64,000 bases of DNA from Thauera sp. 28 (lineage in GTDB: Bacteria; Pseudomonadota; Gammaproteobacteria; Burkholderiales; Rhodocyclaceae). Positions 23,575-29,703 of the stretch are shown piece after piece. The position numbers were made by a program, and so were the translations under genes. Within the stretch, counting starts at the first letter, position 1; the number at the start of each line of letters is the position of its first letter. Under the pieces are notes generated by a model. It did not search any database. It worked only from the letters and a program-made list of their open reading frames with translations, and was not told the origin of the DNA. The DNA lies in the NCBI RefSeq assembly GCF_000310145.2, contig NZ_AMXA01000001.1:186001-250000 (forward strand), read 5' to 3'.

Positions 23575-23627
23575 GCTGTTGCTTCGCGGTTGGATTTCAG
23601 AAAACGTCTTAGCTGAGAGTGATGAAC

Positions 23628-24761
23628 ATGAATCGAGTTGGTCTGGTTGGCTGGCGCGGCATGGTGGGTTCCGTGCTGATGCAGCGCATGGTGGAAGAGG
23701 GCGACTTCGCCTTCATCGAGCCGGTTTATTTCTCCACCTCCAACGCTGGCGGCAAGGCGCCGTCCTTCGGCGGCAAGGAGGCGGCTGCGCCGCTGCAGGA
23801 CGCGACCGACATCGACGCGCTCAAGGCCTGCGACATCGTGATCACCTGCCAGGGCGGCGATTACACCAAGGACGTTTTCCCCAGGCTGCGCGCCACGGGC
23901 TGGAATGGCCACTGGATCGATGCGGCCTCCGCGCTGCGCATGAATGACGACGCGGTGATCATTCTCGACCCGGTCAACCGCAACGTCATCGATGCTGCAC
24001 TTGCCAAGGGCGGGCGCAACTGGATCGGCGGCAACTGCACCGTATCGTTGATGCTGATGGGCCTGGGCGGCCTGTTCAAGCATGGTCTGGTGGAGTGGAT
24101 CTCGGCGATGACCTACCAGGCGGCCTCGGGTGCCGGCGCGCAGAACATGCGCGAACTCATCAGCCAGATGGGCACCATTCATGACTCGGTCAAGGATCTG
24201 CTCGCCGATCCGGCCTCGGCCATCCTCGAGATCGACCGCAAGGTCGCCGAGACCATGCGCTCGGACGCTTTCCCCAAGAAGAACTTCCGCAATACCCCGC
24301 TCGCCGGTAGCCTGATCCCCTGGATCGATGTACCGGTCGAGCATGGCCAGAGCAAGGAAGAGTGGAAGGGCGGCGCCGAGTGCAACAAGATCCTGGGCAA
24401 TCCGGCCTTCCGCAGCCCGGGCTCGATCCCGATCGACGGCCTGTGCGTGCGCATCGGCGCGATGCGCTGCCATTCGCAGGCACTGACCATCAAGCTCAAG
24501 AAGGACGTGCCGCTCGACGAGATTACCGACATCATCGCGGGTGCCAACCCGTGGGTGAAGGTGGTGCCCAACGATCGCGAGACCACCGAGCGCGAGCTCA
24601 CCCCGACCGCCGTCACCGGTACGCTGGGCATTCCGGTCGGCCGCCTGCACAAGATGGCGATGGGGCCCGAGTACCTTGGCGCCTTCACTGTTGGCGACCA
24701 GTTGCTGTGGGGCGCGGCAGAGCCGCTGCGCCGCATGCTGCGCATCCTGCTCGAGCGTTAA
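23628..24761 (+). CDS. asd: aspartate-semialdehyde dehydrogenase
   Basis: NADPH-dependent reduction of aspartyl phosphate to aspartate semialdehyde, feeding Lys, Thr, Met and diaminopimelate. 377 aa from ATG 23628 ([20 protein letters not shown]); in-frame starts at 23619 and 23622 are also possible. The catalytic Cys is in [10 protein letters not shown] and the substrate His in [11 protein letters not shown]. This is the Gram-negative type with the long central insert. The leuB-asd neighbourhood is typical of beta- and gammaproteobacteria. A terminator follows. Confidence 0.96.
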
Positions 24762-24960: not shown

Positions 24961-27900
24961 TTGAAACACACTATGACAAAGTCGCTCAGGGCGTCCCTGA
25001 TTGCCCTCTCGATCGCAGCCATGCCGTTTGCCGCCCAGGCTGCGGGGCTTGGGCAAATCAACGTGTACAGCGGCCTAGGGCAGCCGCTACGGGCTGAGAT
25101 CCAGGTCAGCGCGACTGCAGAGGAGTTGCAGACCCTCAATGCACGTATCGCTTCAGCCGATGCGTTCCGCCAGGCCAATCTGACCTATGGCAGTGCGGTG
25201 AGCGCGATTCGTGTCAGTGTCGATACGCGGGGCGGGCGGCCGGTGCTGCGACTGACCAGTGATCGGCCGGTCAACGACCCATTCGTGGATCTGCTGGTCG
25301 AGCTCGACTGGGGGGGGCGGGCGGCTCGTACGCGAGTACACCTTCCTGCTCGATCCGGTCGATATCGCTGCGCCGCGCCCGTTGGCGGCGAGCGTGGACA
25401 CGCCGGCAGCAGCGCCGGTGCCGCGCCCGCAAGCAGCCCCAGCACCTGCTCAAAGGGCGGCTGCGGTACGCGCGCCTTCCGGTACCTATACCGTGCGCCG
25501 CGGCGACACGATGCACCGTATCGCGACCGCTCACGCCCAGCCGGGATCGACGCTGGACCAGATGCTCGTTGCCTTGCTGCGTGCCAATCCCCAGGCCTTC
25601 GATGACGGTAACATCAACCGCCTGCGCAGCGGTGCCGTGCTGACCCTGCCGGGGGCGGATGCGGTGCGTGCGATCGACGCTGCCGAGGCAAGGCGCGAGA
25701 TCCGTGCCCAGTCCGCCGATTTCGAGGCCTACCGGCGCGGACTTGCGCGCTCGGCCGCCCAGCAGGCGCCCGTGACGGCTCGTACCGAACAAGAGAGCGT
25801 GGGCCGGATCACGCCGCGCGTGGAGGAGGCCGCCCGGGTCGAGCAGGCTGGCGACCAGGTGCGTGTGTCGCGGACGCAGACCGGTGGTGGAGACAGTGAC
25901 GCCCAGGCCCGCCTGTCTGCGCTCGAGGAAGAGCTCGGGTCTCGCGAGCGTGCGCTGGAAGAGGCAAATCAGCGGCTGGCGCAACTGGAGAAGAGTATTC
26001 GCGATCTGCAGCAGCTGCTCGAACTGCAGAGCGGTACGATGGGGCAGCTGCAGCAGCAGGCCGAGGCTGCGCCCGCGGCCGAGTCGGCGACTGCGCCGGG
26101 TGCCGTCACCGAGACCTTGCCGGCAACCGTCCAGGACGAAGCCGAGGCGAAGGGCGAGACTGCGCCTGTGAGCGACGAGGAAGGGGCTGCGCCCGCCGAG
26201 CCGGTGGCGCAGGAGGCGGCACCCGCACCCGCGCCTGCACCCGCAGCCGCACCCGCAGCCGTCTCGGACCAGCCCGACCAGGCGCCGGTCTCCGCGCCGG
26301 CCGCAGCCGAACGCCCCGCACCCGCCGTCGCGCCGGCAGCGCCTGCGCCGCAGCCTAGTCTTGTCGACAGCCTGATGGCTGATCCCGCGGTGCTCGCAGG
26401 GGGTGGTGGCGTACTCGCACTGTTGCTGGCGCTGCTCGGCTTGAAGCTTCGTCAGCGACGCAAGGAGGCGGAAATCCAGGCTGCTTCCTCGGCGCTCGAC
26501 GCCGATGCCCTGGGTGGCAACAGCCAGGCCGTCTTCGGTAGCGGCGGGCAGAGCGTGGATACGGGTGCCACGAGCATCATGCACACGGATTTCAGCCAAT
26601 CCGGACTATCCGCGATCGACGCCGACGAGGGGGTCGATCCAGTGGCGGAGGCTGACGTCTACATGGCCTACGGTCGCGATGCTCAGGCGGAGGAGATTCT
26701 GCTTGACGCGCTCAAGGCCGATCCGGCTCGCACGGCGATTCATCTCAAGCTGTTGGAGATCTACGCGCAGCGACGCAGCGCGCGCCAGTTCGAGACCGTG
26801 GCGACCGAGCTGTACGCGCAGAGCGCTGGCAACGGCCGCGATTGGGAGAAGGCCGCGGCGATGGGGCGCAAGCTCGATCCCGATAATCCGCTTTACGCTG
26901 CCGCAGCGGCACCGGCAGCAGCGTCGGCACCTGCACCTGCGACGGCGCTGGATGATGCGCCTACTCAGCAGGGCGGTGCGCGCGTCCCGGTCGATCAGGG
27001 TGTCGCGCTGGCAGCAGCCGGAGCGGCTCTGGCGACGGCTGCGGTCAAGGCAGAAGAGGTACCGTCTGCCGCTGCTGGCGATCAGCAGGAGCAGGCCGCG
27101 CAGGAGTTGTCCGCGCTCGATTTCACCATCTCGTCTCCAGTTGAGCCCAGTCAGTCCCAGCTGCGCGACACCTGGACGGTTCCGGGCGACTTGAGTCGTC
27201 TCACCAACGCCGAAGGTGAGCTGCCCGACACCCTGCCGCCGCAAGCCTCCGTCGAGGAGGATCAGGCCGCGCTCCAGATCGACGATGAGGTGATCGATTT
27301 CGAACTCGATCTTGACGAGGTGCAGGACGTCGCTTCGCTCGATCTGGCGGTGTCCGGTGAGCCTGCGGCGGAGGCTGCGGCGGTCGAGGCTCGCCAGGAG
27401 GAGGACGGTGGGCTGGTGTTCGACTTGGACATCGGCGATTTTGAAGTGCCTGCAGCGGCAGCCGAGCCGCCCGCTGGTGCTGCTGAGGCGCTTGAGGTGG
27501 AGGAGGCGCCCGAGCTTGGCGATCTCCCCGAGCCGACTGCCAGCGATGCCACTGCGACCCAGTTCGAGAGCACCGATGGCTTGGTCAGCGGGCTCGAGTT
27601 CGAGTTGCCTGACATGGAGTCCGAGCCGCCCGCATCCGGCTTGCTTGACCTGAACGCCACCGTCGTCGCTTCTAGCCTCCCGGCATCCGGTGACGGCGAT
27701 GAGGCGTTCCCGGCCGATGCCGAGGGTGTCTCGAGTGTCGAGGGGCGCGAGGTGCAGGGCGACGAGCGCATCGTCGATCTCGAGAAGACGAGTTTCGACA
27801 GCAGCCTGCTCGAGTTCGACTTCGATATCGATACGCCTTCTGCAACCGATATCCCGGCAACCATGGGGCCAGCTGGGCTGGACCTGACCTCGATCGACCT

Positions 27901-28204
27901 CGATCTGGAGAATTTCGACGATCAGGGTGTGCCGGAGATGACAGCGGTACCTTTCGAGGCAGAATCCACCGACATCGGCCAACCGCGCCCGCAGGCGGTC
28001 GATGACGAACCGCTGCCCGAGGTCGTCGAGGCGGCGGCTGATGAAGCCGACAACGAGGAGGCCGAGACCAAGCTTGAGCTCGCGCGTGCCTACGAAGAGA
28101 TGGGCGACAACGAAGGCGCGCTCGAACTGCTCCAGGAGGTGCTCGGCGAGGGGTCGTCCAGGCAACAGCGGACGGCGCAGGAGATGATCGCCCGCCTCGG
28201 CTGA
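24961..28204 (+). CDS. fimV: FimV-like peptidoglycan-binding polarity protein, frameshifted
   Basis: Large inner-membrane protein that organises polar type IV pilus/secretion machinery. Order: signal peptide (ending PFAAQAA), N-terminal FimV domain (GLGQINVYSGLGQPLRAEI), LysM domain (about 25481-25650), coiled coil (25914-26030), Pro/Ala-rich linker, one membrane helix (about 26390-26450), acidic cytoplasmic region and the C-terminal FimV domain (LARAYEEMGDNEGALELL). The N-terminal frame breaks at a run of eight G (25310-25317) and would stop at 25603-25605; the rest continues in the +2 frame. Seven G would restore WGGGRLVREY. Start is TTG 24961 or ATG 24973. Sequencing error, phase variation or inactivation cannot be separated here. 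Confidence 0.88.
25310..25317 (+). repeat. G8 homopolymer at the fimV frameshift
   Basis: Eight consecutive G inside codons for the conserved WGGG stretch of the N-terminal FimV domain. One G fewer joins the two reading frames exactly at the point where the protein family continues. Confidence 0.9.
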
Positions 28205-28264: not shown

Positions 28265-28909
28265 ATGCATTCAGGCCTGATCCTTCTTCTCTGGCTGGCC
28301 GCGGTTGCTTCGGTGCAGTTGTTGCCGATATCCGCGCTCGGCGTTGCCGTCCTTGCCTGTGCGTGCGCCGCACTGCTGTGGGCGCGCGTGCGTGCATGGA
28401 GGCTGGTGCGGCGTGTCCGCATCCTGCTCCTCGCCATCGTGGTCCTGTTTGCCTGGTTCACCCCAGGGGAGGCCTTGTGGGTCGACTGGCCGAGACTGGG
28501 GCCCAGCCGTGAAGGGACGATGCTCGCCTTGCTTCATGCGGGGCGCCTGCTCGCAGTCGTGTGTGCGGTCGCGTTGCTGCTCGAGCGGTTGCCGATCGAG
28601 CGCCTGGTCAGTGGCCTGCATGCGCTTGCCTCGCCCCTGCGTGTGCTCGGCGTGCCGCCTGAGCGGCTCGCCTTGCGGCTGCTGCTCGTCCTGCGCCTGG
28701 TCGAGGCGAGTCCGCGCGGCACTCAGCACGGTGACTGGAGGCACTGGCTGGAAGACGAGTGCGAGCGTGGGCGAGCGGATACGACTGGGCGTGACGAGGG
28801 CGGAGGCGACGGCGAATCGGTGCGTATCCTCCGAGAACGCCTGGGGTTGGTCGATGGCTTGGTTGCGATCGCTGTGTTCGCGGCGCTGATCTGGTGGAGT
28901 GTGGCATGA
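28265..28909 (+). CDS. membrane protein, weakly CbiQ/EcfT-like
   Basis: 214 aa. The N-terminal 70 residues contain two to three hydrophobic helices (GLILLLWLAAVASVQLLPIS; ILLLAIVVLFAWF), and another helix lies at the C-terminus. The central part (GRLLAVVCAVALLLERLP, then RLALRLLLVLRLVEA) resembles the transmembrane T component of ECF transporters, but no ATPase or S-component gene is nearby. It lies between fimV and truA, overlapping truA by four bases (ATGA), so it is translationally coupled to it. Function unknown; the ECF assignment is tentative. Confidence 0.6.
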   Translation: MHSGLILLLWLAAVASVQLLPISALGVAVLACACAALLWARVRAWRLVRRVRILLLAIVVLFAWFTPGEALWVDWPRLGPSREGTMLALLHAGRLLAVVCAVALLLERLPIERLVSGLHALASPLRVLGVPPERLALRLLLVLRLVEASPRGTQHGDWRHWLEDECERGRADTTGRDEGGGDGESVRILRERLGLVDGLVAIAVFAALIWWSVA

Positions 28910-29703
28910 AGCGAATTGCGCTCGGCGTGGAGTACGCCGGCGATGCCTTCTGTGGTTGGCAGAGTCAGGCGCACGGGCGTACCGTGCAGGACGTGCTGGA
29001 GTCTGCGCTTGGCCAGATTGCGGCGCAGCGGGTGCGGCTGCACTGTGCCGGCCGTACCGATACCGGGGTGCACGCCAGCGTGCAGGTTGCGCATTTCGAC
29101 ACCGATGCGCATCGTCCGGCGAGCGCTTGGGTCCGCGGCGTCAATGCCTTGCTGCCAGCGGCGGTGGTGGTGCGCTGGGCAGTGGAGGTCGACGACACCT
29201 TTCATGCGCGCTTTCTCGCCACCGACCGGCGCTATCGTTACATCCTGCACAACACGCCAACGCGCCCGGCGCTGCTTGCGGGCAGGGTAGGCTGGTTCCA
29301 CCTGCCGCTTGATGAGGCTCGTATGGCCGCCGCCGCGGAGTGCTTGGTGGGCGTGCATGATTTCAGCGCTTTCCGCGCCGCCGGCTGCCAGGCGAAGACG
29401 CCCGTGCGGCTGATGCATGAGGCGGCGGTTTCCCGGCAAGGCGATTACCTGCTGTTCGATTTTCGTGCCAATGGCTTCCTGCACCATATGATCCGCAATC
29501 TTGTCGGTGCGCTTGTGTACGTTGGCAAGGGGCGCTATCCCGTGCCCTGGATGCGTGAGTTGCTCGAGTCCTGCGATCGTTGCGGGGCTGCGCCCACCTT
29601 TGCGCCTGACGGGCTTTACCTGTGCGGCGTGAGCTACCCGTCGCGCTGGCCGCTGCCGGACGATGGGCGTATCATCGCGCTGCCCCAGCTACCCCTCGCC
29701 TGA
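28906..29703 (+). CDS. truA: tRNA pseudouridine(38-40) synthase
   Basis: Converts uridines 38-40 of the anticodon arm to pseudouridine. 265 aa from ATG 28906, which overlaps the stop of the previous gene. The catalytic Asp is residue 52 in CAGRTDTGVHA. The second-domain motif FLHHMIRNLVGALV is also present. The stop is directly followed by the trpF ATG. Confidence 0.96.
   Translation: MKRIALGVEYAGDAFCGWQSQAHGRTVQDVLESALGQIAAQRVRLHCAGRTDTGVHASVQVAHFDTDAHRPASAWVRGVNALLPAAVVVRWAVEVDDTFHARFLATDRRYRYILHNTPTRPALLAGRVGWFHLPLDEARMAAAAECLVGVHDFSAFRAAGCQAKTPVRLMHEAAVSRQGDYLLFDFRANGFLHHMIRNLVGALVYVGKGRYPVPWMRELLESCDRCGAAPTFAPDGLYLCGVSYPSRWPLPDDGRIIALPQLPLA

Follow-up and report, generated by a model that had tools for sequence, protein, structure and literature searches.

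FimV of Pseudomonas aeruginosa and Pseudomonas putida and HubP of Vibrio and Shewanella share an N-terminal Ig-like domain, a LysM-type core, a hydrophobic stretch and a C-terminal FimV domain. The same landmarks are found in the fimV gene studied here, although in this case they lie in two reading frames. In P. putida, the LysM domain and an Ig-like domain are both required for polar positioning, and the protein serves swimming and the placement of chemotaxis clusters, not pilus-dependent motility (PMC12918733, in the part of the text available). The break described below separates just these two domains, the LysM from the Ig-like domain. FimV of P. aeruginosa is tied to twitching and cAMP, and frameshifts in its gene are in print (available passages of PMC8552725 and PMC12054119); one nonsense case was found among 88 isolates (PMC9241816), and mutants resistant to some phages include those in fimV (PMC9603268, as excerpted). 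In the available passages of PMC8552725, correcting fimV left the studied trait unrestored, which is a warning against reading function into a fimV break. Our literature search found no paper naming both FimV and Thauera and, on fimV and phase variation, no work apparently treating fimV switching.

We analyzed a window of 64,000 nucleotides from the draft genome of a wastewater-type Thauera. As assembled, its fimV gene is divided by one surplus G within a run of eight (25310-25317, plus strand), and both the sequence and the list of open reading frames place the change of frame there. The upstream frame (24973-25605, plus strand) contains a signal peptide, identified by eye, and the FimV N-terminal Ig-like domain (Pfam FimV_N, PF25800; 1.1e-28), crosses the tract and continues as an out-of-frame tail to a stop codon at 25603-25605; its start was placed at the ATG at 24973, by eye the likelier one, in preference to the TTG at 24961 given in the list. 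The downstream frame, on the same strand, is open from 25259 to 28204 (981 codons, about 2.9 kb), and the remainder of fimV at 25318-28204 is read in it. It holds the FimV core or LysM-type region at 25505-25720 (NCBIfam FimV_core, TIGR03505; 3.7e-22; residues 83-154 of the 981-aa frame), a presumed membrane-spanning stretch at 26390-26449, seen by eye as a hydrophobic run in the translation, and the C-terminal TPR-type domain at 28067-28198 (NCBIfam FimV_Cterm, TIGR03504; 5.7e-17; residues 937-980). All matches were above their cut-offs, and the gene thus has all three of the domains expected of a FimV/HubP protein, divided between two frames. The first-pass annotation had named the gene fimV, assigned its N-terminal part and the rest to different frames and counted no stops for about 2.9 kb downstream, and the domain matches and the reading-frame list bear it out on each point.

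An asd-type gene lies upstream (23619-24761, plus strand) and a truA-type gene downstream (28894-29703, plus strand), both recognized from their translations; we take the genes before fimV to be leuD, leuB and asd and those after it truA, trpF and trpB, and the asd-fimV-truA neighborhood is also that of Pseudomonas. The gene order is much alike in a related Thauera genome (G005). Runs of eight G or C are not rare in the genome, and the unusual feature is the frame break and not the tract.

The segment around the tract was examined in two collections, at 109 other loci in all, some genomes being present twice. The motif W-x-x-G-x-x-x-R-E-Y was matched in 70 of them (56 distinct segments), the unmatched 39 being two loci of the same genus (L034 and L035) and others from more distant genomes. 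In each of the 70 readable loci a single frame spans the motif with no stop codon, and the longest stretch of G numbers two, three or four. As the motif of the relatives spans the tract point in a single frame, the change of frame must be at or beside the G8, where it had first been placed. The residues following the W vary among the relatives (ATG, AGG, SGG, ANG and so on), indicating that constraint is loose at the spot where the G run arose. A comparison with related strains had been proposed as a check on the tract itself, and there the tract proved to be absent: not one of the 70 readable loci, among the 109 examined, has a G run longer than four. The repeat is thus not kept in the readable relatives as that of a contingency locus would be, and the tract is not a conserved switch or frameshift signal.

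Four causes had been offered for the break, and two of them, phase variation and programmed frameshifting, lose ground because the tract is absent in the readable relatives and the mismatch-repair genes mutS and mutL are whole. Both are unlikely, and nothing was found that points to a regulated switch. Phase variation would mean that the tract slips both ways and that part of the population switches FimV on and off accordingly. The pure G tract, within the coding sequence and close to the 5' end of a surface- or pilus-related gene, and the undecayed downstream frame would suit such a mechanism, but eight bases are short for a contingency tract, no interior G/C run in the genome is longer than ten and the tract is missing from the relatives; we consider it improbable. 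The same low standing is given to a young contingency switch, in which a slippable run gained in the Ig-like domain would give a population of FimV-on and FimV-off cells and so vary polar organization, pili or chemotaxis between an attached and a free life in sludge. In Vibrio, C tracts of seven and nine in pilus-related genes are mutagenic, chiefly in mutS-deficient lines (PMC5854121, available part), whereas the repair genes of the present genome speak against phase variation. The mutS gene appears in two pieces on two contigs (the ends of C18 and C40; L192/L193), and a mutator hypothesis, with an insertion in mutS and a slip-prone strain, was considered and rejected: the two ends share an exact overlap of 85 bases, translated identically, so that the gene is whole and divided only by the assembly. 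The exact overlap suggests that the assembly was k-mer-based.

Programmed or tolerated frameshifting, in which slippage of the ribosome or the RNA polymerase on the G run would yield some full-length FimV, is in our estimate the least probable of the readings. All-G codons permit re-pairing after a slip, and the tract lies in a hairpin of the predicted fold. Against this, the slippery site is not conserved in the readable relatives, and the segment folds little better than its shuffles (z -1.36; equaled or bettered by 17 of 200), so that neither the conserved site nor the stimulatory structure of a programmed frameshift is in evidence. A low basal rescue of the reading frame at the G8 may nevertheless occur.

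The two ordinary causes, recent inactivation and an error of assembly or sequencing, stand. The pairwise dN and dS of the downstream part of fimV gave no sign of old decay: dN between this genome and G017 was 0.35, in comparison with 0.34 and 0.38 for the intact pairs G008-G017 and G008-G012, all comparisons being pairwise only. With the amino acid change within the range of intact pairs, any loss would be recent. The open downstream frame had been taken to argue against old inactivation, an argument that does not extend to a recent one. The undecayed frame would equally be left by an assembly error, the main rival reading, according to which fimV is intact in the cells and the consensus carries a surplus G. 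We regard such an error as a possibility to be taken seriously, if a less probable one, and recent inactivation as somewhat likelier.

The assembly consists of 4,312,555 bases in 117 contigs, and its 4.3 Mb contain 49 runs of at least eight G or C. Such a run stands 20 bases or less from five of the 234 contig ends, in comparison with about 0.05 expected under random placement. This excess shows that the assembly handles poly-G badly and that a wrong tract length is possible, and it counts in favor of an error. The runs concerned, at the starts of C8, C25, C36 and C55 and the end of C10, are 8 to 18 long, with one of 18. The evidence from within the contigs leans the other way. Apart from the run in fimV, 43 lie in contig interiors; of these, 12 are read straight through inside a Pfam domain (L122, an aroB-type DHQ synthase; L149, an M23 peptidase; and L130, L131, L132, L133, L136, L139, L140, L141, L150 and L158), one separates two pieces of a UvrD domain within a single open frame (L147), and eight are in open frames (L119, whose run may precede the start codon, L124, L126, L127, L128, L137, L146 and L151). 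In just one case does a run coincide with a change of frame inside a gene (L153:3015-3023), and that gene also has an in-frame stop. The remaining 21 runs, at gene junctions, intergenic or not scorable, fall outside the test, though some of them were viewed by eye; about twenty runs were testable, and one of them may well be in error. The sequencing platform, presumably Illumina HiSeq2000, makes few homopolymer errors, which also speaks against an error at the tract. The published description of the Thauera sp. 28 genome gives 4,319,739 bp in 119 contigs above 200 bp, sequenced on the Illumina HiSeq2000 and assembled with Velvet/CLC (PMC3569365, in the part available).

An automatic codon count, using a model seeded with six genes of the window, gave a less favorable figure. 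Frame differences were found at 5 of the 17 scorable runs of at least eight, in comparison with 296 of 3,561 control positions, and somewhat above these controls also at shorter G/C runs, again tallied automatically (24 of 177 for five, 3 of 30 for six and 2 of 9 for seven). Reading the five flagged runs by eye reduced them to one broken gene (L153:3015), three gene junctions (L142, L149:4860 and L153:6820) and one ambiguous case (L134). The table of codon counts left out fimV itself, the downstream flank of which scored just below zero. A scan for frame changes over 314 kb gave 12 places: four lie opposite an unbroken frame on the other strand, L145 was read by eye as a junction of two genes, and seven are others.

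The broken gene at L153:2700-3857 (G000:C43) is isoprenylcysteine-methyltransferase-like, with its in-frame stop just upstream of the frame change at nine G. The strongest of the seven other places is L156:4999 (G000:C49), where the coding potential of the plus strand changes frame without a long homopolymer. At L130 and L133, correctly read G8 runs coincide with the paired glycines of a GGEEF or GGDEF motif, so that in this genome slip mutations would naturally fall in diguanylate cyclases. The FimV_N domain recurs in a second protein, encoded at L137:1895-4363 on the minus strand (G000:C12) in a frame of 823 aa, which reads through eight consecutive C on the coding strand in frame.

Two other genes, met by chance in the stretches examined, are broken in ways not explicable by homopolymer error. 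One, with a DUF748 domain, is split by an IS1380-family element (L136:3-4301, G000:C11; transposase frame 1215-2666), with positions 448-614 of the profile on one side of the element and 612-1037 on the other. The second encodes a TonB-dependent receptor, the plug domain of which is interrupted by an in-frame TAG (L150:2352-2354, G000:C38). The pilus genes looked at are in order, with pilQ whole (an open frame of 796 aa) and three pilT-family members above cut-off and likewise whole, indicating, as far as examined, no general decay of the pilus system.

We surveyed fimV in other genomes, taking a frame of at least 800 aa as intact. The main fimV was found in 27 of 29 Thauera genomes and runs off contig ends in three (G016, G020 and G024). 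Among the 24 assessable genomes it is open in 22, a proportion that favors the error reading, and broken in the present genome (G000) and in G005. The latter, a single-contig genome, has an in-frame TAA in a coiled-coil-like region of fimV (L159:4267-4269), at a position with Lys or Arg in the relatives and with the frame open on either side. In the family as a whole, 199 genomes were searched and 191 gave a match; the counts were made by hand from the matches listed (150 rows, 149 genomes). Among these, 13 rows had frames below 800 aa, 10 of them running off a contig end and three closed by a stop: the present genome, G098 and a second copy in G169, the other copy of which has 934 aa. In G098, an assembly of 8 contigs, the frame changes near runs of C6 and C5 before the C-terminal domain (L176; G098:C8:511000-514500), and this break may itself be an error. 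Broken fimV was thus counted in 2 of 139 assessable genomes among the matches listed.

As a control we surveyed the essential gene gyrA, for which 196 of 199 genomes searched gave a match and the counts were again taken from the matches listed (150 rows, 149 genomes). Nine short frames were found among them. Six are at contig ends, five by reading and that of G236 by coordinates only; the other three are an in-frame stop in G066, two N with a frame change in G198 and an additional copy in G141. With gyrA broken in 1 of 142 genomes, there is among the matches listed no difference from fimV worth claiming, and we dropped the idea of recurrent fimV loss. The gene is kept in nearly all genomes and, as far as shown, its loss is no commoner than sequence errors alone would suggest.

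At the present locus, the frame changes at the tract, homologues are intact elsewhere, the tract is absent in the readable relatives and no further decay is seen. On balance, and with moderate confidence, we favor a recent one-base slip that inactivated fimV in the sequenced culture. The gene would have been intact until recently, the G run would have arisen by chance at Gly codons, and slipped-strand replication would have added one G in the sequenced lineage or culture, leaving fimV broken. The extra base would then be present in the cells, and the 5' product would be a secreted fragment of about 210 residues, including the signal peptide, with the Ig-like domain only and without any peptidoglycan-binding, LysM, membrane or TPR part; the cell would probably be without a functional FimV hub at its pole.

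No particular cause is required for a slip of one base in a G run, and in Vibrio lines lacking mutS, single-base indels become more frequent as homopolymers lengthen (PMC5854121, available part). For a recent slip count the break at a tract with domains on both sides, the restriction of the tract to this lineage, the reading through of nearly all other long runs in genes and the downstream amino acid change within the range of intact pairs, together with the DUF748 and TonB receptor breaks, the broken fimV of G005 and G098 and the published frameshifts of P. aeruginosa. Against it count the poly-G at five of 234 contig ends and the automatic frame differences at five of 17 runs, even with only one within a gene after reading by eye; the near-equal counts for fimV and gyrA among the matches listed leave repeated loss unsupported and weigh on the same side. 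With pilQ and the pilT family whole, the slip would be a single-gene loss of a kind known from chronic-infection and phage-selected bacteria.

If the break is real, another polar organizer has been lost through a single slip, which matters for work on polarity and pili in this strain; should it prove an error, the annotation ought not to be taken for a loss. A more general interest is limited to the switch reading, which is itself unlikely. The tract is like the poly-G and poly-C contingency loci in being a mononucleotide G tract in the coding region of a surface-related gene, and it is unlike them in being short, not seen in relatives and known at one length from one assembly. A closer likeness is to the fimV mutants of P. 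aeruginosa obtained from chronic infections or under phage selection (PMC8552725, PMC9241816 and PMC12054119, in the parts available). Whereas those mutants were compared with a reference or parent and the Thauera case comes from one assembly, the lesion is alike, a frameshift or nonsense change in fimV, and what we describe is a confirmed but ordinary, lineage-specific one-base break in a known gene.
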